A DNA stretch of 64,000 bases, from the NCBI GenBank assembly GCA_015680905.1, contig CM027377.1, positions 10,192,501-10,256,500 on the forward strand. Reading direction: 5' to 3'. Below the pieces are notes generated by a model. It worked only from the letters and a program-made list of their open reading frames with translations, did no database searches and had not been told where the DNA came from. The position numbers and the translations under genes were made by a program. This document shows positions 8,129-62,257 of the stretch, one piece after another (positions within the stretch are counted from its first letter, which is position 1; each line of letters begins with the position of its first letter). The DNA is from Coptis chinensis. Its lineage: Eukaryota; Streptophyta; Magnoliopsida; Ranunculales; Ranunculaceae.

Positions 8129-10105
8129 TTATGCACTGAGACCAGCCCAATTTTTAAAAGCAACGAGTGCTTCCATTTTCCTGAAGTTCCTCTTCCTCAG
8201 CTTTGCCACTTTGAGTTTTTTATGGGACTCCATGAATGCCTGCTTGTATCTCCACTTATCAACGAATATTTTCATTTCCTGCGTCTTCTCCACAACTTGC
8301 ATCACCGCGTCAAAGAAACCACCCTTGATCAAAGCATACAAGAACGCATCCACCAAGTTGTGGTCCAACTTAAGACCCTTCTCACTATCAGCAGAAACCT
8401 GCTTCCTGACCTCTGTCCAAAGTATCAAAACACTGAAGTATTTTTCTGCCGTCACATACCCATTGATGAGTGTCAAGTAAGTTTGCCCGTTCGTTTGAAA
8501 CCGTAAAAATGACATCCTTCTCAAAGTCCGTCTTGCATCCTCCAACCGCCCAGCCTTACAGAAAGCATGTATAATTGAATTCCAATCATGGGTGCCGACT
8601 TCAATACGTGGGTCCTCCACAACCTCGTCTACGAAAGCTGCCATAAGTTCAGGCCGGTGATTTTCCGTTAAACCAGTCATGATAGTGAGGTAACTCATTT
8701 GCAAGTCAGGTATTTTTGCCTCCCTCATATCCCTAAAAAGAGAAAATGCTGATTGAAAATCCTGATTCGACATGGAGGCTTCTATGAGAGTGTCATAACT
8801 AGCTGCATCTAGCTGAAGACCTGAAGCACTGATATCCATAACCAACTGAGCAGCTTCACTTGTGCGCTGCTCTTTGCAATACGCCTTCACTATTGAAGTA
8901 TAGACACCAAGCCCAACAAAACCTCCCTCGGCAGTCATCTGGTCAAGAATGCTGTGAGCCTTATCTAATAATCCAAGATTAACGCACGCAGTAACAATCC
9001 GAAACCCAACAGAGCTATCAATCCCAATTGAAGCTGACTCCAACTTTTGAGACTCAATAATCAGTTTGGCCAAATCCTTAATATTCCCATTTTGAAGGAA
9101 ACCTCTAACAACCACACAATAAGTTTCCTCACCAAAACTCACACTGTGACCATCTCCCTCTCGCAAACTACGCAAAATTATCTCCGAAACAGATCGTAAG
9201 CTGCCAGATTTAACATATCCATTTATCAAATTAGTATAAAACACCCTTTTCGACAAAACCCCAAAACCCTCCATCAATCTCTCCAACTCCACAATCTTAT
9301 CTTCAACCCCTTTCACTGAATATAAATAAGCAAGAAACCCAAAGCTAGCCTCGTCAGGCCGAACACCAAGCACCGACATTGTTTCCAAAACACTCTCAGC
9401 ATCACTAATAGATTCAAGCTCACAACAACATCCCTCCAAAGCAGCATTACAAGCATTCAAATCAGGTTTCATAAAATCCAATTTCTCACCCAAAGCAATC
9501 TTACAATTCTCATTAAAAACCCGTAAAAACGCAACAAAGTTACTATTCTTCCTACTTATATCAATCAAAACACCACCCCAAACACTAAAAGGCAAAAAAA
9601 ATCTATTCTTGAACATAGACTTCACTAAAGCAAAAGCAGGTGCAGCAGTATTAGCAGAACACATAGAACATAAAAGAGTCTCAACAGTTTTATATTCCAA
9701 CACACTGGGGTTCTTTTCTAGTAAAAAAACAACAGTAGCAAATGCTCTTTTAAGGTTATGTATATCTTTAAGGGAAGATAAATGAGCAATCAAATAATTT
9801 GAAACATTCTTACTTGGGTAGTTTGAAGTACTAGTTAGAATCTTGAAACACTTCCATGCTTCATCAGTGTTGTTGGTTTGAATGGAGTTATGAAGAGTGG
9901 TCTCAAAGGATGTTTTTTGGTCTGGGGTTAAGGTTTTTGGGATTGGTTGTAAGGTTTTAGGAGGGTTTTGTGATGGTTGGTTTCTTTTCAAGGCAAATAT
10001 TGAAGGTTGGAGGAATGAATAAAGAGTTGGGATTTCAGGTGTTGTGCAAAATTGTTGTCTTTTGAGATAGAGAATGGAGGAGAGTGTTCTTCTTCTTCTC
10101 CACAT
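8129..10105 (-). CDS. P-class pentatricopeptide repeat protein, probably mitochondrial
   Basis: One intronless frame of 658 codons, as usual for plant PPR genes. The N-terminus (MWRRRRTLSSILYLKRQQF) is Arg- and Ser-rich without acidic residues, which suggests a mitochondrial targeting peptide. The body carries serial 35-residue helical repeats, for example VFYTNLINGYVKSGSL, GVYTSIVKAYCKEQRTSEAA, ASYDTLIEASMSNQDFQSAF, HDWNSIIHAFCKAGRLEDA and QTYLTLINGYVTAEKYFS. No E, DYW or SMR tail is seen, so it is P-class. The C-terminus is very basic (HKKLKVAKLRKRNFRKMEAL). PPR proteins bind organelle RNA base by base and act in splicing, end processing or translation; the target here is unknown. It resembles the Arabidopsis At1g69290-like group as far as I can judge from memory. 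Confidence 0.88.
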   Translation of the reverse strand: MWRRRRTLSSILYLKRQQFCTTPEIPTLYSFLQPSIFALKRNQPSQNPPKTLQPIPKTLTPDQKTSFETTLHNSIQTNNTDEAWKCFKILTSTSNYPSKNVSNYLIAHLSSLKDIHNLKRAFATVVFLLEKNPSVLEYKTVETLLCSMCSANTAAPAFALVKSMFKNRFFLPFSVWGGVLIDISRKNSNFVAFLRVFNENCKIALGEKLDFMKPDLNACNAALEGCCCELESISDAESVLETMSVLGVRPDEASFGFLAYLYSVKGVEDKIVELERLMEGFGVLSKRVFYTNLINGYVKSGSLRSVSEIILRSLREGDGHSVSFGEETYCVVVRGFLQNGNIKDLAKLIIESQKLESASIGIDSSVGFRIVTACVNLGLLDKAHSILDQMTAEGGFVGLGVYTSIVKAYCKEQRTSEAAQLVMDISASGLQLDAASYDTLIEASMSNQDFQSAFSLFRDMREAKIPDLQMSYLTIMTGLTENHRPELMAAFVDEVVEDPRIEVGTHDWNSIIHAFCKAGRLEDARRTLRRMSFLRFQTNGQTYLTLINGYVTAEKYFSVLILWTEVRKQVSADSEKGLKLDHNLVDAFLYALIKGGFFDAVMQVVEKTQEMKIFVDKWRYKQAFMESHKKLKVAKLRKRNFRKMEALVAFKNWAGLSA

Positions 10106-11039
10106 TTGAGACTCATCAAAATTTTTTTTTTACCGCTGACTTACGACTCTATCATTTCTTGTAAATGCCGAGGCATATACCGTGAATATCAGCAAAATTC
10201 TTTGGAGTGTCGGTATAATTGGTAACGCGCCAGACATTTTTCAAGGATCTGCTTTTAAATCGGCACCAATATATTGAAGTTTAAAGTGTGGAATTTTTAG
10301 TTGTGCACCAAACGATCAAAGAAATGCAATCTAGACTTGTTGGAAGTTGGAATTTAATGAAACCAACTCTGCTGAATCTACATCGTATTTTGGAATTGTA
10401 TCGATCAAACAGTGGTTTGTGATAATTTGTAACAAAGTGTAGTAGTGCACATTCAGGAAAATGACCTGAAGGTTGAAGCAATTTACCAACAGAGTGGGCT
10501 CCTGTATTACCCAATCATCCTGACACGCTGACACCACTCTGTACTTCAAGGCAAACTTTGCTTCTCGAGGGATTACAGTTTTCAAGGCCAAGCAAGAAAC
10601 AAATATAGTTGTCACTGATTTAAATTTGTTCTTTAATTTTCAATGGGCCTGCAAGTGAAAATAGTTAACCCATTTAAATTTGTTTGTAATAATAATGATG
10701 TAGTGAAAGGTTAACCCAGTGCACTGAGGTTAACACACTTACACACACCACCACCACCACAACGTTTACAGGGGGGCAAATGAGGTTGGTCCAACATGAA
10801 CAGACAGGCCCTCCTTCCAGAAAATTAGAAGTTACATGTCATTATATCCCAATGCCAAAGAAAGAAAAAGGCAATACCATGTAAGTAGTTCAGACATGTA
10901 TTGTTAACCCCTCTATGAATTGCTGAATTCTAAACATTCACTTAAAATGTATATCAAAACATAAGATGAATTTATCAGCCTATTCCTAAACAAGCTTCAT
11001 AAATCCTGCCACGGGAGAAAAAGCTCTGCAACGCTGGAC
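10106..11039. other. Intergenic: PPR upstream region and erlin 3' region
   Basis: Contains the presumed PPR promoter just above 10105 and the erlin 3' UTR below 11040. A CA/CCA-rich run lies near 10740-10765. No supported coding sequence. Confidence 0.45.
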
Positions 11040-18788: not shown

Positions 18789-20314
18789 ATGTCTAGAGAA
18801 GAAAGAATTACATATAACCAAAGGTTATGGGGAGGATCTAGTAGTAATAGTTCGCCTTCCTCGGTTTCACCGTCGTCTTCTTACTTCTGCCTAAGATGAC
18901 TACATGGAAAGAGTAAGAGATGAGCATAATGATATGATGGCAAGGAGGAGGAGGAGGTTGCAGCTTATCCACTCTTTGGGGCATTAATGACTCAAGCAGC
19001 CATTGAAATTGAAGATGTGGATACGCATAAACGCTGTGGATCCGTGGCAGGCGTAGAGTACACGCTTTAGAGATGGTGGTGATTTCAATAAACAAAAGAT
19101 AATGAGGGATTACTTCACAACACCTTGTAGGTGGCCTCCCTCATAAGTTTAGACGAAGGTACTGTGATGACAAGAGAGCTTTTATGTATATGTTGCATAA
19201 TGTTGCATCATTCGACGATTACTTTAAAGACAAGGTGGATGGATTGGGTCGGCAAGCAATTTCGGGTTACAAAGGGGACTAAGCAGCTTGTTACAATTAG
19301 CAACCGGTTGTTCTTCCGATTCAACGGATGAGTATTTACAAATTGGAGATTCCACAAAGAAATGTATCTATGAAGCGTTGGTGCAAGGCAATTATCACGG
19401 CGTTTGAGGAAGAGTACTTGAGACGACTCAAGTGAAGCGCATTAATCGCTAGGATATTAGCTGAAAATGCAAAGAAGGGGTTTTCCAGAATGCTTGGATC
19501 AATCGACCGTATGCACCGGGTGTGGAAGAATTGCCCAAGTGGATGGGTTTGGAACACATGTAGGGTACAAGAAGGAACCAACTTTGATACTTGAAGCCGC
19601 TGCGCACAAACATTGTTGATCCGGCATTGCTTCTTCGCCTACCAGTTCGCGATAATGACATTAACGCGTTTCATCGTTCTCATGTTTTTGAATCATTAGA
19701 GCAAGGTGAGGCTCCTCCCGCCGTTGCATTTAATGTGAATGGTAATGACTATGATATGGGATATTATCTTCATGATGGTATTTACCCAAAATGGGGCACA
19801 TTTGTTCAAGCCATTCGTTATCCAAGAAATAAGCATGAAAAGATCTTTACTCAATGTCAAGAAGCTGCAAGAAAGGATGTTGAAAGGACGTTTGGAGTTT
19901 TGCAGGCACGATGGCATATTGTTAAGGCTTCTGCGCGTCATATAGTGTTGTTGTTCTTGGAGATATAATGAAGGCATGCATTATAATGCATAATATGATT
20001 GTTGAGAATGAACGTGAAAGTGGAGTTTGGAATTGGAAAGGTCAGAGGAAAGAAACAATACCTGCGCTTTTTCAGGAAGATGATGGTTTTCATTTTGTCT
20101 ATCAGATGATTGAAGCAAGAAATAAGATCGAAATTGAATTTACACATACTAATCTTCAAAAGGACTTAGTTGAACATGTTTTTAATTGGACTGGCATTGA
20201 AGAAACAGCAGATCCGGTACCAATTTATGATCCAAATTGGTCGGATCCGGATGAGGGAGAAGGAGGCTTAAAATTAAAAATGGAAATGAAAATGTATTTC
20301 CTATGTATTTCCTA
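18789..20314 (+). pseudogene. Harbinger transposase pseudogene (DDE_Tnp_4 type)
   Basis: An ATG at 18789 starts a Ser-rich leader, and several frames then carry a typical plant Harbinger transposase. Segments in order: a DYFTTPCRWPPHKFRRRY block, GFSRMLGSIDRMH.VWKNCP (first catalytic Asp), NDINAFHRSHVFESLEQGEA (second Asp region), FNVNGNDYDMGYYLHDGIYP, and ARKDVERTFGVLQARWHIV (third catalytic Glu). The last segment is KACIIMHNMIVENERES. The acidic triad is thus still visible, but the usual Cys in GSIDCMH is Arg. Multiple stops (for example near 18898, 19281, 19435 and 19593) and frame changes near 19695 and 19960 break the gene. The role of an intact copy is cut-and-paste at TTA sites together with the Myb-like ORF1 protein. 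Confidence 0.85.
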
Positions 20315-26735: not shown

Positions 26736-27505
26736 GTCACTGTAGTACCGTACAACAGGAATTCGGCATATGACATGAGTTTCTTCTTGAAGAATATAAA
26801 GAGATCATATCATGCTCCAAAGTCCAAGTAATGGTGACATGTTGCATTATGTTAATAAGGTAGGAAAGCTTAAGTTCGGAAAACAAATATGCTATCCAAG
26901 TCTGAAAAGCATAGACTTATGCGTATCTCTTCAAACAGCACGTAGGGATCTCATCAGTAGTATAGCCCTATAGCCATCAAATTTGAAAGCTTTTCTCGGA
27001 TCAATATATCCTTTTTCTTTGTACTGTTTTTGTTTCTCTTAGTAAGGTAGACTAAAACTATCATAAAAGATAAAAGAAAGGGTTAATTATACTAAACCCT
27101 CCGACGTATATACCAATTTAGATTAAAGTCGTTAAACCCTCTATTATTTAAATTATTATACTTAAATATTCATATTGGTTGATGTTTCACTTAATTCCAT
27201 AACTGTCGTCATTATTTTTTTTTCTCGATCGCTCTCCTACTCCATTTTGGCTACATTACCACCACCATATTTTTACAAAATTATAATCCAAATACCAAGA
27301 ATTTGAAACGATATCTACTGGTAAAATGTTGAAACTATATTGTGAGCTCTCTCAGAACAAAAGGTTTTAATTTTTAGTCAAGCCCACTCAATCCAATTCG
27401 TTTTGGATGGTTTGGAAGAATTGAATATTTAGAGGTTGAAATTGAGTATTCTTGGGTTTACCTAAGGTTTAGTATGTTATTGGTGTTGGGAGGTTTAGTA
27501 TGTTA
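26736..27505. other. Intergenic, no supported gene
   Basis: AT-rich sequence with no recognisable gene, ending at the host A (27505) next to the Helitron array. Confidence 0.45.
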
Positions 27506-28005
27506 CTAGCTTGTAGGCCCGTGCATACGCACCGGCTCTTTTGAAAATATTTAGATTTTTTTTAAAATTGGGACTACCGTTTTAGTCGCTAACTCGTTTT
27601 AATTTTCTAATAAATTATTTTAAATGAAGTTTTAACTAAATTTTAAAAACCCATTTTTTCAATTGGGAGAGAGATCCTATTTTAATAGGAGAATAATTCC
27701 CGTTTTAATTAGATATGCTATATTTTCTTTTTTCAATGGAGGAAGAATTCCCATTTTAATAGGAGAATGATTCCCACTTTAATTAGAAGTGTTAAAATTT
27801 GTTTTAATAGGAGAGAAATTCCCGTTTATAATAGGAGATGAATTCCTATTGTAAAAAAAATGATAAATATAAGGCGAGAAATAGGATAAAAAAAGGATGA
27901 ATTATTGTTTTTCAAATAGGATAGAAATTCCCGTTTTAATAGGAGATGACGTGGAATTTTAATATAGCTTGAAAAATACTCCTTGTGGGAGCTTTAATAT
28001 TAAGA
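27506..28005 (-). mobile_element. Helitron-like unit A (500 bp) of a tandem trimer
   Basis: On the minus strand the unit begins TCTTAATATTAAAGCTCCCA and ends CTAG, followed by host T. A hairpin-forming GGTGCGTATGCAC lies about 11 bases before CTAG. These are the marks of Helitron ends (5' TC, 3' hairpin and CTRR, insertion between A and T, no TIR or duplication). No Rep/helicase, so non-autonomous. Its 5' end abuts unit B with no spacer. Confidence 0.75.
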
Positions 28006-28403
28006 TTAGAAAGTAGATCGGTGCATACGCACCGGCTCTTTTAAAAATTTGCTCAACAATCATAACAAATCGTGATTCCTGTTTTCGTCGCTAATCTGTT
28101 TTAATTTCTTAACAAATTGTTTTAATTAAGTCTTAAAAACCCGTTTAATTTCTTAACAAATTGTTCTAATTAAGTTTTAAAAACTCGTGTTTTTTAATTG
28201 GGGGAGGAATCCCATTTTAATTTGGAAATAAAGAGTTTTTATGCTACTATTTGAATTTTGGTTTTCAAAGGAAATGAGATTCCTGTTTGAAGTTGGATTC
28301 TAAAAGAAAAAGAGTTTCCCGTTTTAAGTTAACTATTAAGTTGATAACGTGGAATTTTAATAGAGCTCGAAAAATATCCCTTGTGAGAGCTTTAATATTA
28401 AGA
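28006..28403 (-). mobile_element. Helitron-like unit B (398 bp) of a tandem trimer
   Basis: The same family as unit A. Its 3' end reads TTAG on the plus strand in place of CTAG and its hairpin CCGGTGCGTATGCACCGA is kept. Its 5' end (TTAATATTAAGA on plus) runs directly into the CTAG of unit C at 28404. It is shorter than A because of internal deletions. Confidence 0.72.
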
Positions 28404-28832
28404 CTAGCTTGTAGGCCTGTGCATACGCACCGGGCTCTTTTGAAAATATTTAGATTTTTTTTAGAAAATTAAGACTATCGTTTTAGTCGCTAATCTGTTT
28501 TAATTTTCTAACAAATTATTTTAATTAAGTTTTAAAAACCCGTTTTTTTTAATTGGGAGAGAGATCATGTTTTAATAGGAGAATAATTCTCGTTTTAATT
28601 AGATATGCTAGATTTTTCCTTTTCAATAGGGGAGGAATTTCCATTTTAATAGGAGAATGATTCCCGCTTTAATTAGAAGTGCTAGAATTTATTTTAATAG
28701 GAGAATAATTCCCGTTGTAAAAAAAGATTTCCGTTTTTTCAAATAGGAGAGAAATTCTCATTTTAATAGGAGATGACATGAAATTTTAATAGAGCTTAAA
28801 AAATACCCTTTATGGGAGCTTTAATATTAAGA
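28404..28832 (-). mobile_element. Helitron-like unit C (429 bp) of a tandem trimer
   Basis: Starts on plus with CTAGCTTGTAGGCCTGTGCA and ends TTTAATATTAAGA, followed by host T (28833). Closely related to unit A (AAATATTTAGATTTTTTTTA and the GGGAGAGAGATCATGTTTTA region). Confidence 0.75.
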
Positions 28833-30300
28833 TATAGATTGGTGTTAGGGTTATGGGATTTAGATTGTGATTGTATTGTGGAATCAAGTTAGAATTTGCG
28901 AGACAGAGTGATTAGTTTAAACAATATAGAGTTTAGTCTAAACCAGTATATAATTTTGGAGGTTATATCTAATTAACCCTAAAAAATAAAACATACTGAA
29001 TTTTGGACTTGTAAATAACATAGGGCAAAATGGCAACATGAATGGAAACCAAAGCTTGGTGGAGGTGAGCAAAGTTGGGATGGCGCCATGAACATTTTTG
29101 GCTAAATGGTTTTCTCTCTCCCTTGATTGTCATGTGCTTGTGTGTATATATTATTCATGAAAAATAAGTCTTGGGGACCAGAAGCTGATTTTCGATATGA
29201 AGGCCCATCCTTGTAATCGTTTTAAAAAATGTCACGTTTGCTTAAAGTCATAAAATGTAAAACTTCCACATTTGTTTTGTTGATTTTAGGGATACACAGT
29301 CAACAAAGTACGTTATATGTTTTTTTTTAGCATGTTTTAAATGAGATCAGTAACTCTTTGATATTGGTAGGTTTGAGCTCTAGACCTCTAGTATCATCAC
29401 CCAAAGGATTTACCGACTTTGTTAGTCGGCACCTGCAGTATGCTATATATTTGACCTGTTAATGATGATAAATGCAGTCGATCTCCGTAATTCGCATGTC
29501 ATAACATCTGGTCGACTTTCATACTACTGTTGGACTAAACAAAATGTGGTACTACAAATTCCTGACAACGTTAAATGTCTCCAACAATTTAAATCTTAGT
29601 GGTTCAGATTGCTTGAACAGATATAAAGTACTTTGGTTTAGGAAGGTAGAAAAGTTTACACCTCCACAATTTACATCCGTGGCCGAACAAACAATATACG
29701 AGCCACCACTTAATTTAGAAGTATTTTAATTTACTAGAAGGGTAAAAGGGAAAGAAAAGGACCATCCAAATATCCAACACTACCATGTAAATAGAACGTG
29801 TAATAAGGTAAGGTCGCACATCTGTTAGCGACCAGTGCTCATCATCTCAGAGACTTTTTTGGGAGATGAAAACACCCACATTTGGTCGACATTTGCAGGA
29901 AGATTATATGACATATTCGTCAGGTGCTCATCATCTCAGAGACTGTTTTTGGGAGATGGAAGCAGCTACTTGGTCGACATTTGCAGGAGGATCATATGAC
30001 ATGTAATATTCCGATACCTAACGCATTTTAGTATATATATATATATATACACAGTAGTTTTACCAAAAAAAAAATATATATATCCAACACTAAAAAAACA
30101 TCCTATGAATAAGCAGGGGTCAATTTTTGTGACGCATTGGGCGACTTGACTCAAAAAGCAATGAAAGTGACCAATAACATCGTATTTGGCTTCTCCTATG
30201 TACTCTCACGCCTGCTCTTCGTTATTCTCCACTCTCTCTACACATTCTTGCTCGTGCACGTACACATTTACACGTAACACACACCATTCTTTCTTTCTGC
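28833..30300. other. Intergenic and HAK promoter/leader, with an 89-bp tandem duplication
   Basis: AT-rich. Two copies of GTGCTCATCATCTCAGAGAC with following GGGAGATG...TTGGTCGACATTTGCAGGA begin at 29835 and 29924 (period 89, last copy to about 30012). A short (TA) run lies near 30033-30048. The last 120 bp before 30301 are C/T-rich, like a plant 5' leader. Confidence 0.55.
29835..30012 (+). repeat. 89-bp tandem duplication upstream of HAK
   Basis: Two units differing at several positions and by small indels, about 290-465 bp upstream of the transporter start codon. Confidence 0.75.
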
Positions 30301-33300: not shown

Positions 33301-35555
33301 GGCTCTCTCTGCAGTAGTTCTGATTGCTTTGTTTCTGCTTCAAAAGTTTGGCACTTCAAAAGTGAGTTTCCTGTTCTCTCCAATCATGGGTGCCTGGACC
33401 TTAACTACTCCAATGGTAGGGATATACAGCATTATACATCATTACCCACGTATATTTAAGGCGTTATCACCACACTACATCATACATTTCTTCCTGAGAA
33501 ATGGAAAGGAAGGCTGGCTGTTACTTGGTGGTATTGTACTCTGTATCACAGGTATGTTGCATATTGACAGAAGATATTTTTTCATGAACTATATGATGTC
33601 CATCAATCCTTAGGACTCTGTGGTTTGTCTATTCTGATAAAGCAATCCCTCTCCCACAGATTGTATTTGAACACTTACAACAAAAAATTACATGTTTTTC
33701 TGTTTAGGTTCTGAAGCACTGTTTGCAGATCTTGGTCATTTTAATAAGCGCTCAATTCAGGTAAAGTTAACCTTACATAATTTATGGTATTTCTGTAGGA
33801 CCATCTTACATCTCCTCCCTTTGCCTGAACAGATTGCCTTTTTGTTCACAATATATCCTTCATTGATCCTGACTTATGCGGGGCAGACGGCGTATCTGAT
33901 CAAGCACCCCAATGATCACGATGATGGGTTTTACAAGTTTATACCCTCTAGTGTTTTCTGGCCAATGTTCATTGTTGCCACACTGGCAGCAACAGTTGCA
34001 AGCCAGTCATTGATATCTGCCACATTTTCTATTATCAAACAATCAGTTGTGCTGGATTATTTTCCTCGTGTTAAGGTGGTGCATACTTCTCCGTACAAAG
34101 AAGGGGAGGTTTACTCTCCAGAAGTTAATTACATCCTCATGGTTCTCTGTGTCACCGCTGTACTTGTGTTTGGAGATGGGAAAGATCTCAGCAATGCATT
34201 TGGTATGAAAAGTTGAAAACTACTTGATCCTATAACTTCTTCTTTTATACTTTCGTTTTCAGTTAAAAACAGAACAAGGTATGCAAGGTACACATGTGAT
34301 ACCTTCTGCTCTCTAGCTATGGCTTAGCGGTACCTAAATGTTTCTGGTTAGTTGTTGGTATTAAGGATGGGATTGACCTATGTTATATACAAGGCACTAA
34401 TGACCGATCCGATCAGCTCACACCTACGGATTTATATGCCTTAAAATCGAAAACAATTAATAATTTGGTGGCTACTGCTCTCTTGTTTGGCCCAGTACCT
34501 CTTTCACATAGTCTAATTTACTTTTTCCCTTCACCACACACCCTCACATTCATGCCATTCCATTCTGCGGCAATTTCTCCAGCCAACATATTCGCCATTG
34601 TTAGACATTCAAGTTTTCACAACTTACAACATTGTGAACTACTAAAATAATTAAAGTATTATTCGATCTTGCAAATTACTAACTGGAATTTCCTTTTACA
34701 GGAGTTGTGGTCAGTCTAGTTATGCTAATCACCACCATCTTGCTGACACTGGTCATGCTCATGATTTGGAGGACCTCAATTGTGCTGGTCGCTCTTTACT
34801 TTGTCACATTTTTTCTTATTGAAGGGGTTTATGTTAGTGCGGTCTTCACCAAGATTCCAGAGGGTGGATGGTTACCTTTTGCCATTTCCATCTTCCTTGC
34901 ATTTATCATGTTTGGCTGGTTTTATGGGAGGCAGAGAAAGTTAGAGTATGAAATGACCCATAAAATAACTTTAGACAATCTTGGTATGCTTTTGGCCAAC
35001 CCAGAAATCCAAAGGGTTCCAGGACTATGCTTCTTCTACAGCAATATCCAAGATGGACTCACTCCTGTCCTTGGGCATTACATCAAGAATATGAGATCCT
35101 TGCATAAAGTCACTGTTTTCACAACCCTTCGTTACTTGTTGGTTGCTAAAGTGCCTCAACAGGAGCGGATTCTTGTCAAGAATTTGGGCCTTAAAGGGGT
35201 GTATGGCTGTGTAATTCAGTATGGATATGCAGATTCTCTAAGTCATGAAGGAGACGGTTTTGTAAGTCAAGTTATCAATAGCTTGCAGGCCCACATACAA
35301 AAGTGCTCAAACACTTTTCTATCCATTCGACTCTCAGTTGAAGAAGAATTATTAGAGTTAGACAGTGCCAAACTGGCAGGAGTAGTTCATGTGAAAGGGA
35401 AGACAAGGTTTCATATTGGCAAGGACGTTGGCTGGTTTGATAAGAATATGCTGGCATTTTATGAAGTTCTGCACAGCAATTGTAGATCTGCATTGCCTGC
35501 TTTGGGGGTACCCGTAGCTCAACGTATGGAAGTTGGCATGTTTTACGAGGTATGA
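30301..35555 (+). CDS. HAK/KUP/KT family potassium transporter
   Basis: Eight exons: 30301-30429, 31204-31429, 32569-32811, 32909-32959, 33291-33551, 33708-33760, 33833-34202, 34702-35555. All have GT-AG borders and join in frame to 729 codons (728 aa). Hydrophobic segments spread over residues about 50-520 agree with the 10-14 helices of this K+/H+ symporter family, with a long cytosolic C-terminus. Family blocks seen: GEGGTFALYSLLCRHANI, FIAMLGMCMLIGDGILTPAI, GSEALFADLGHFNKRSIQIA, ASQSLISATFSIIKQ and terminal MEVGMFYEV. The canonical GVVYGD.GTSPLYV motif reads GVVFGGLVTSPLYVY (residues 60-74), a variant I recall from the rice OsHAK4-type branch, though I am not sure. The first exon encodes a 43-residue polar Thr/Asn-rich head. 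Likely plasma-membrane or endomembrane K+ uptake; the substrate is inferred from the family. Confidence 0.92.
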
Positions 35556-52663: not shown

Positions 52664-53759
<1,096 letters not shown>

Positions 53760-55907: not shown

Positions 55908-56143
55908 TATAACAACCCTATTTTTCATTCCCATTTTTATTAAATATATATAAAATTAAATAATAATAAAAAGAAAGGATAAAGATAAAGATAAAGATAT
56001 AATCATAAAAACGTGGGAAGTTGGATGAGTAGTTGCTGGAAATAGGGGATGGGGGTTTCGGGTGTTTTGGTTTTACCAAACACTCGTTCTTGTTTTTGGG
56101 GAGAGTTTTTTTAAAACAAAAAGAGAAGAGACGTGCTCTAAAA

Positions 56144-56246
<103 letters not shown>

Positions 56247-56895
56247 CTTTTCGGTTAAAAAAGCCGTTTCTTTTATTTGGTTTTTTTCTTTTTCACTTTT
56301 TTCGCTTAAATTCACAAGTGAGTAGTCTAAATTTTAATTTGTTCTAAATCAATTTTAATGGATTGTTAACTGATTTCTACTAATTAAGCCATTGAATTGT
56401 TTTATTTGAAATTATGGGATTTAAATCTATTAAAGTGCTCAAAGACTTAAATCGCATATTGACGCATACACGTTCTTTTGGTTATCTATGTATTGATTGG
56501 TAATTGTATATGGAATTCATTAAATTGTTGGTCAACTGATTGAAGTGAGCAATTGTTATATGTTAGAGATTGGTTTCTCATAAAAAAAGAGGTCGGTTAT
56601 ATCTATTGATGATTGTCATACCTTGTTTGCTTTTAGTGGCGCAGATATATTACCATGAGTAGTTGGAGGGCATAACAAGTAATTATTTGATTCTAATGTG
56701 ACTTTTAGATATGAGAAGGTATAATGGTATTCTTTGCATGTCTTTGTAGGCTTCTGACCTTTTGTGATATGTGAGTTATTCCCGCGGTAGTTTCTTTGCA
56801 TGACTTTATTGCATTTAAATGTGTTATACATAATAAGTAAAGGTTGGATTTTGATAGGGAATATTTGACAATGGCTACTGGTGCAAGTTATCTTT

Positions 56896-56897
<2 letters not shown>

Positions 56898-56981
<84 letters not shown>
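56898..56981. repeat. (AT)42 microsatellite
   Basis: 84 bp of uninterrupted AT inside the LTR. Confidence 0.97.
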
Positions 56982-56983
<2 letters not shown>

Positions 56984-57099
56984 ATGGGTCGATCTAGATG
57001 GTACAGTCGGTATTAAACCCTTATACCAATTGACTTGCAGTACTTTAAATATTCTCTTTTAGATGTCAGAAAGTATAAGCTTAGCTCTGGTCTGATTTC

Positions 57100-61279: not shown

Positions 61280-62257
61280 CTATGGGGGTTTGGTTTTGGA
61301 TACAACGTCCATAGCTTCTACAGCGTAATTGCAACAATGGCAGCAACCATAACGGCACCCACCACGGCCTCCTCCACCGTTGTAACCACCCCCTCCACCA
61401 TTTTATCCACCGCCTCCACCGTATCCACCACGTCCGCCGTTATATCCACCCCCTCCACCGTATCCACCACCTCCACCATATCCACCCCCTCCACCGTATC
61501 CACCCCCTCTATATCCACCGTATCCACCACGTCCGCCGTATCCACCCCCTCTATATCCACCGTATCCACCACGTCCGCCGTTATATCCACCGTATCCACC
61601 GTTATATCCACCCCCTCCACCGTTGTATCCACCTCCTCCACCGTTATATCCACCGTATCCACCACGTCCGCCGTTATATCCACCGTATCCACCATTATAT
61701 CCACCATACTTAGCATCCTCCAAACTCTCCTTGTTCTCTGCCAATGAAATAGCACAGGAGTTGTTAATGAGAATGATTAATACATTACTTAATTAATATA
61801 AAATCTTAAATAGATAATGTATGTACTGCAATGAAATTACGAGAATGAACATATAACTTAATTAGGCGTTACTGCATATACTACTAGAAGGTGGCATTTC
61901 AGGTATGCTAAGAGCTAGGCAATGCTAATAGGCCGGCCTCAAGCACTATGTCTTTCCGTGTGCTATGTACTGTGTTACTGTCGCAACTTGAGTCACTACT
62001 GTTTTGCAAACGTATCTTGCAACTAGATTATTGCTAGCGTTCCTAGCTCGTAGACATATTTTAACATCATGGAAATTTCAAAAACTAGCTAGGTACAAGA
62101 AAGAAGGTAATTAGTTTTATTAATACATCACGTATATAATGTCAGACTCACTAGCTTCAGCAGTTTGACTATCGGCTGCTGCTACTTCAGAAGAAATAAC
62201 CAGAAGAACAATAGCTAGGAGGAATCCCATAACAAAAAAAGCTTTTAAATGAGACAT
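61280..62257 (-). pseudogene. Class II glycine-rich protein gene interrupted by a nonsense codon
   Basis: Exon 1 (62257-62152) encodes a signal peptide (MSHLKAFFVMGFLLAIVLLV...SSEVAAA, residues 1-27). Exon 2 starts at 61737 after TTGGCAG and reads KNKESLEDAKYGGYNGGYGG, then repeated GGYGGYNGG, GGYRGG and GGGGGY units. At 61405-61403 a TAA stands where the repeat expects a Tyr codon (GGA TAA AAT GGT against GGA TAT AAT GGT). In the same frame the coding sense continues to a second stop at 61280 and encodes CRYGCCHCCNYAVEAMDVVS followed by KTKPP. This is the Cys-rich tail of GRP3-like secreted cell-wall proteins, which in Arabidopsis meets the WAK1 receptor kinase. Product as read: 146 aa without the tail; readthrough length 187 aa. 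It may be a null allele, a sequence error or a recent pseudogene. Confidence 0.85.

Follow-up and report, generated by a model that had tools for sequence, protein, structure and literature searches.

How does an array of transposons come to stand head to tail, with no base between one unit and the next? The question is raised by a locus of Coptis chinensis (assembly GCA_015680905.1; 935.6 Mb, 116 contigs). The window, a stretch of 64,000 bp of contig CM027377.1 (C1:10192501-10256500), holds three short Helitron-like units, U1, U2 and U3, in direct succession on the minus strand. For head-to-tail Helitrons in bats and maize it has been debated whether such neighbors are concatemers or the product of serial insertion (the bat case via PMC2267711). 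An earlier note on the window had offered the same two histories: one multi-unit insertion after failed termination, or repeated insertion at the 5' edge of a resident copy. Comparison of the units shows that U2 belongs to a different subfamily from its neighbors, and arrays sampled elsewhere in the genome look likewise put together, as a rule, from units that had already diverged.

Three units of two types

The inserted DNA and its host site comprise the following features.

27506..28838, minus strand: whole inserted array, including the 6-bp left end TCTATA; host CCAA|insert|TAAC
28833..28838, minus strand: left-end hexamer TCTATA, present at most outer array edges and absent from most inner junctions
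28404..28832, minus strand: U1, type A, 429 bp, 3' end CTAG
28415..28435, minus strand: 3' hairpin of U1, GCC..GTGC GTAT GCAC..GGC, predicted DNA fold (z -1.32; 24 of 200 shuffles as good, hence weak)
28006..28403, minus strand: U2, type B, 398 bp, 3' end CTAA (usual type B end CTTTCTAG)
28019..28034, minus strand: 3' hairpin of U2, CGGTGC GTAT GCACCG, predicted DNA fold (z -4.24; 1 of 200 shuffles as good)
27506..28005, minus strand: U3, type A, 500 bp, 3' end CTAG, with a 63-bp segment absent from U1
27517..27536, minus strand: 3' hairpin of U3, predicted DNA fold (z -2.03; 10 of 200 shuffles as good)
28839..28849, minus strand: left half of the host target (CCTAACACCAA)
27491..27505, minus strand: right half of the host target (TAACATACTAAACCT)
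27465..27490, minus strand: uninterrupted paralogous copy of the target, 25 of 26 positions identical, used as a stand-in for the empty site

Read on the minus strand and checked by script, all three units open with TCTTAATATTAAAGCTC. They follow each other without spacer at CAAGCTAG|TCTTAATA (28404/28403) and at CTTTCTAA|TCTTAATA (28006/28005), which confirms the lengths, orientation and zero spacers given in the earlier note. The note also had the ends of U1 and U3 right (CTAG), but its TTAG for the middle unit is the plus-strand reading. In the direction of the element U2 ends in CTAA, still within the CTRR consensus. The start motif and the hairpin core each have three matches in the window when up to three mismatches are allowed, and all of them lie within the array (shuffle means of 0.42 and 0.00, respectively). 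A scan of the window for further hairpin-CTRR candidates returned three weak sites.

The units start with TC, have a predicted fold near the 3' end and finish in CTRR (CTAG, CTAA and CTAG), as canonical Helitrons do. Together with an A|T target and the lack of a target-site duplication (see below), these features bear out the label "Helitron-like" and support an assignment of the units to short non-autonomous Helitrons. Among the viral and prokaryotic contigs searched none has an exact copy of the family 3' motif, and plasmids gave no match to the array.

Aligning the three units, a check that the note had proposed, reveals that they are not all close kin. U1 and U3 are identical at 88.5% of aligned bases (K80 distance 0.128; 38 of the 49 differences are transitions). 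The identity of U2 is 66.2% to U1 and 67.6% to U3. Of the 30 bases at the 3' end, 29 are the same in U1 and U3, whereas U2 shares 23 with either of them. Because U2 diverges from U1 and U3 both overall and at this end, the array is a mixture of two types, A (..CTACAAGCTAG) and B (..CTACTTTCTAG), and both types predate it. The note itself had said that units from different subfamilies of clearly different age would refute its reading, and on this count U2, at 66-68% identity to its neighbors, tells against it. A multi-unit insertion by failed termination from one donor is not supported for the three units, and a concatemer of one donor was thus rejected for the window.

Arrays across the genome

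A query of the assembly with all three units gave 1563 first-look candidates, of which 40 were scored, yielding 101 matches. The corresponding query with U2 gave 1537 candidates, 40 of them scored, and at least 174 matches; the counts from both queries are lower bounds. Thirty loci from the three-unit query reduce to 26 places once overlaps are merged. Twenty of these were extended, and 26 arrays, including that of the window (locus L001), were dissected. Five places added later bring the number of loci for junction counts to 31. After dropping 18 of 110 unit entries (wrong length, unclear type or no 3' end) 92 units were analyzed; the tree of A units omits the 11 of 66 that fall outside 280-620 bp.

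A strict count over the 31 loci finds 127 unit starts: 94 inner junctions, 25 edges marked by TCTATA and 8 that are neither; in at least two of the latter the join is an inner one whose 3' end is damaged. Zero spacer is seen at 86 of the 94 inner junctions; the others contain TCTATA (three), TA (three), TCT (one) or TCTTAAA (one). The unit on the 5' side ends in CTAG in 85 cases, in ATAG or TTAG in three each, in CTAA in two and in CCAG in one. Hence the exact TC/CTAG joins that the note had suggested looking for do occur elsewhere in the genome. Were 1537 copies scattered over A|T sites by chance, the whole genome should contain about 0.014 exact abutments on the same strand, a rough figure that uses the AT frequency of the window. 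Exact abutment is far beyond chance.

The copies most similar to U2, which are not a random draw, also tend to have neighbors. Among the 44 nearly full-length matches listed, 37 lie beside another unit, six are solo and one is unclear (37 of 43 classifiable copies). Nineteen of the 44 fall in loci already dissected, all of them in arrays. The other 25, classed by eye, are the first (10), an inner (3) or the last (5) unit of an array, solo (6, one with an eroded left end) or unclear (C4:80111566). Two of these 25 (C5:85214947 and C3:26227908) were also found with the three-unit query. A loose-matching script, which counts TA runs as units, differs in the finer classes; on whether a copy belongs to an array it departs from the eye only for C5:3336573 (by eye its neighbor is a TG/TA run and no unit). 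Where U2-type copies have neighbors the spacer is mostly zero, with TA or TCTATA in some cases.

The largest array contains up to ten typed units (L040). A unit followed by a B unit is commoner than the reverse (31 v 19), perhaps an effect of the query. Some loci carry longer units with the same ends (about 840 bp in L028 and L038, about 960 bp in L032 and L045), and these are 92-96% alike between loci.

If arrays were rolling-circle concatemers, their units should be copies of one donor. This is not what we find. In the 26 arrays 6 of 92 units have their nearest same-type relative in their own array, against a mean of 3.5 obtained by shuffling labels (maximum 13 in 1000 shuffles). A units have the same identity within arrays as between loci (0.878 for 64 pairs and 0.878 for 1421 pairs), and B units are on average 0.787 identical within arrays (20 pairs) vs 0.830 between loci (646 pairs). 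A star-like burst from a single source could equalize these means, and indels are a better test. We used ten indels, each at least 8 bp long and common to at least three A units. Fifteen arrays have more than one A unit, and in 14 of these the A units differ in at least one of the indels, variants that also occur at other loci. In the A tree none of the 16 cherries comes from one array. No two arrays share both flanks (49 available flanks of the 26 arrays). As a rule, these arrays hold units that diverged before they were joined. On these results concatemers were rejected as the rule in the sampled arrays.

The left end of the element

The left edge of the array does not lie at 28832, where the note had drawn it. 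The insert extends 6 bp further, through TCTATA, and its true left boundary is at 28838 (A|TCTATATCTTAAT). The empty site that had been proposed, ...TTA|TAT..., is displaced by the same 6 bp; the host reads CCAA|TAAC. TCTATA belongs to the insert because a nested copy at locus L055 begins with it. This copy, which starts TCTATATCTTAAT and carries an A and a B unit, has broken up a further A unit at the site CTCCTA|TTAAAA. Put back together, the halves of the broken unit give a gap-free alignment of 148 bp with an intact A unit.

The window itself points the same way. Joined at 28838, its flanks align ungapped with the copy that follows just downstream, with 25 of 26 positions identical; among 20000 random joins, 94 are equally good. 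At the boundary of the earlier note 172 of 3000 random joins equal the real one, a weak result, and the two figures are not like for like: this one comes from a gapped, wider test and that for the shifted boundary from an ungapped, narrower one. The nested copy in L055 and the paralogous target in the window both show insertion between A and T without target-site duplication.

The outermost unit of an array mostly has TCTATA before it, often repeated, and beyond this lies DNA that differs between loci (the 25 edges counted above). The ends of the family are TCTATATCTTAAT on the left and GTGCGTATGCAC..CTAG on the right. A solo U2-type copy (C56:48633) lacks TCTATA, with ..CACCCA directly before TTTTAATATTA; therefore the inner start may double as an end of the element.

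Two family copies, those at L055 and C3:34387026, appear to lie inside A-type sequence, both at the motif CTCCTA|T (for C3:34387026 this is read from the left edge only). The motif may thus be a favored target within units.

The left end can also adjoin other Helitron-like ends. In L054 a different hairpin-CTAG end, CACCCGTTCGTAGGACGGGTTCGAAAACTAG, abuts TCTATATCTATATCTTAAT; it is Helitron-like by shape only. In L039 a similar hairpin-CTAG end abuts a TA run that stands in place of the hexamer and is followed by TCTTAAT. The two joins may descend from a single one because the loci are 88.5% alike over 61 bp there. C7:63041391 is a possible third case, with an unconvincing hairpin.

A pair of units probably shared between loci

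The U2-U3 block probably occurs also at an unrelated locus, L049. A 900-bp alignment that spans the U2|U3 junction gives 92.8% identity between L001 and L049. U2 and the B unit of L049 both end in CTAA, and they share five rare states, which places them first of 351 pairs. U3 and the A unit of L049 pair in the A tree (support 0.981; identity 0.948) and have 45 rare states in common. Of these, 38 fall in columns where most other units have a gap; the 7 in columns that are filled rank the pair second among all A pairs. At its start L049 has a TA run, and after the pair that matches U2-U3 it holds two more units. On the simplest reading U2 and U3 were already a block before they reached at least one of the two sites, and U1 joined separately. 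Repeated insertion at the 5' edge is the better of the two histories in the earlier note, except that the U2|U3 junction may have come ready-made.

L035 and L044 share two supported pairs of units (0.959 and 1.0). In L035 two neighboring units have their nearest relatives in the last and the first unit of L044, as if the tail-to-head joint of a circle had been passed on.

How the arrays may have been assembled

The reading to which we give somewhat more belief than doubt is that arrays were assembled from independent copies inserting at an A|T in the left end of a resident element, sometimes with block movement thereafter. In the left end of the family, A|TCTATA|TCTTAATATTAAA, A|T targets would be available both at the terminus itself and a few bases inward, where one copy after another would enter. 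Each arrival would set its CTAG against the TCTT of the resident with zero spacer, so that an array of unrelated units would result. Later, read-through of inner 3' ends could let a finished block be duplicated as a single element. The altered CTAA of U2 may have favored such read-through in the window, where the array would then be U1 joined to a ready-made U2-U3 block. The target used could lie on either side of TCTATA, and both the order of insertions and the enzyme involved are presumptive. A bolder version, which we doubt more than we believe although it is far from implausible, treats the left end as a self-renewing landing site. The transposase would prefer A|TC at resident left ends, patchwork arrays, even with other Helitron families, would be usual, and the outer TCTATA would mark the original left end.

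A number of results weigh against assembly by insertion at the left end. Growth at the left edge alone predicts a gradient of age from 5' to 3', and there is none: of 130 pairs compared within arrays, 58 have the greater divergence in the 3' unit and 72 in the 5' unit (permutation p 0.83). In the window U1 should be the youngest unit, yet its derived states slightly outnumber those of U3 (23 v 15 and 17 v 13; p 0.26 and 0.58). Inner junctions mostly lack TCTATA though outer edges have it, and therefore insertion just inside TCTATA, or the use of the second TC, would be needed. Complete elements entering at the outermost A|T explain only a minority of junctions (3 of 94). If complete elements entered just inside TCTATA, one hexamer per insertion would be expected; tested over 24 arrays, the length of the TCTATA run is not significantly related to the number of units (rho 0.29, p 0.16). 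Two small, supported A clades do hold units of the same array (units 1 and 4 of L031; units 4 and 7 of L040 with units 2 and 4 of L032). As for the block probably shared with L049, six pairs of B units have four rare states in common, by identity U2 is closer to four B units other than that of L049, and most of the rare states linking U3 to L049 sit in the gapped columns. The first 26 arrays, moreover, were chosen as the best matches to the three-unit query, and the sample favors arrays.

Alternatively, arrays could have been assembled rarely and long ago, most loci being whole or partial copies of an array made by reading through inner 3' ends. The pair that is probably common to the window and L049, the two supported pairs of L035 and L044 and the two units carried by the nested insertion in L055 all speak for such transposition in blocks. 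Yet we consider it unlikely as the general account. Across the 26 arrays adjacent unit pairs are not shared above chance (one pair, a number that 251 of 300 shuffles reach; null mean 2.15), a test that omits the L001-L049 pair because the start of the L049 B unit is damaged. Nor did we see a common order of unit types or lengths across the dissected arrays. Copying of one donor several times into one site after termination failure would account for head-to-tail joins, and Helraiser circles do show CTAG|TC joins (PMC4778049). A few arrays also have two units in one supported clade. However, the units of an array come from different subfamilies and carry different indels that predate it, which contradicts this origin for the window and makes it very improbable for the arrays at large. 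Also, a complete circle should have TCTATA where its ends meet, and this hexamer is mostly missing from inner junctions. Single neighbors of the same subfamily outside the window could still be concatemers.

Least credible to us is that unequal exchange or gene conversion joined or shuffled the units after insertion. The units contain internal repeats and are similar enough to recombine, but such events would put breakpoints inside units (no search for chimeric units was made), whereas 86 of 94 inner joins lie exactly at element ends, in a count that itself seeks such ends. In L054 a different hairpin-CTAG end joins just as exactly.

Known Helitron arrays

Adjacent and tandem Helitrons have been published before, and the window array is a variation on a known theme. 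The closest case is a head-to-tail pair of unlike Helitrons in maize, for which consecutive insertion was favored and an A|T composed of the host A and the element T was discussed as one possible target (Du et al. 2008, PMC2267711). The zero-spacer CTAG|TC join of unlike elements is common to both. The maize case is a single pair, whereas here a family forms many arrays of up to ten typed units, with TCTATA outside the array. Tandem Helitrons in plant genomes are also known from the truncated arrays of centromeres (Xiong et al. 2016, via PMC12628747, PMC5148889 and PMC7492417). Those have multiple 5' ends and a single 3' end; here inner 3' ends are present, and 85 of 94 retain CTAG. Several 3' ends within one element are possible in maize too, where nesting and read-through were invoked, but 99 of 100 sampled elements lacked an intact inner CTAG, unlike the inner ends here (PMC3288121). 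Three copies in tandem are described from Metarhizium acridum, with the same two explanations on offer (Chellapan et al. 2016, PMC5148889); that is a single case, from a fungus and a non-canonical group of Helitrons. In Drosophila, transposon dimers were attributed to insertion-site preference and not to replication (McGurk and Barbash, cited in PMC12628747), as we suggest for the adjacency here, although other transposons are involved. Helraiser targets A|T, prefers AT-rich surroundings and forms circles with CTAG|TC joints (PMC4778049, PMC5876387).

In the literature searched, from which most subscription papers fall out of scope, we found no mixed-subfamily Helitron arrays beyond the unlike pair of Du et al.; the search also returned no publication that pairs the start motif of the family with a Helitron. 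The family provides dozens of exact joins that can separate concatemers from serial insertion. It also suggests a simple route from dispersed transposons to tandem repeats, namely an element whose own end attracts further copies.

Surroundings of the array

The window carries protein-coding frames with Pfam matches. To the right of the array lie pieces of a KUP/HAK-type potassium transporter gene (33671-34216 and 34683-35555, plus strand; K_trans and its C-terminal domain). A plant transposase fragment (19588-19968, plus strand; Plant_tran, PF04827) is presumably PIF/Harbinger-like. There is also a piece of a cytochrome P450 (6374-7027, plus strand) and an uninterrupted frame for a PPR protein of the At1g68980 type (8129-10129, minus strand). 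Four open frames (52984-53385, 55918-56292, 56616-56993 and 61280-61796) look, by eye, like mere readings of microsatellites.
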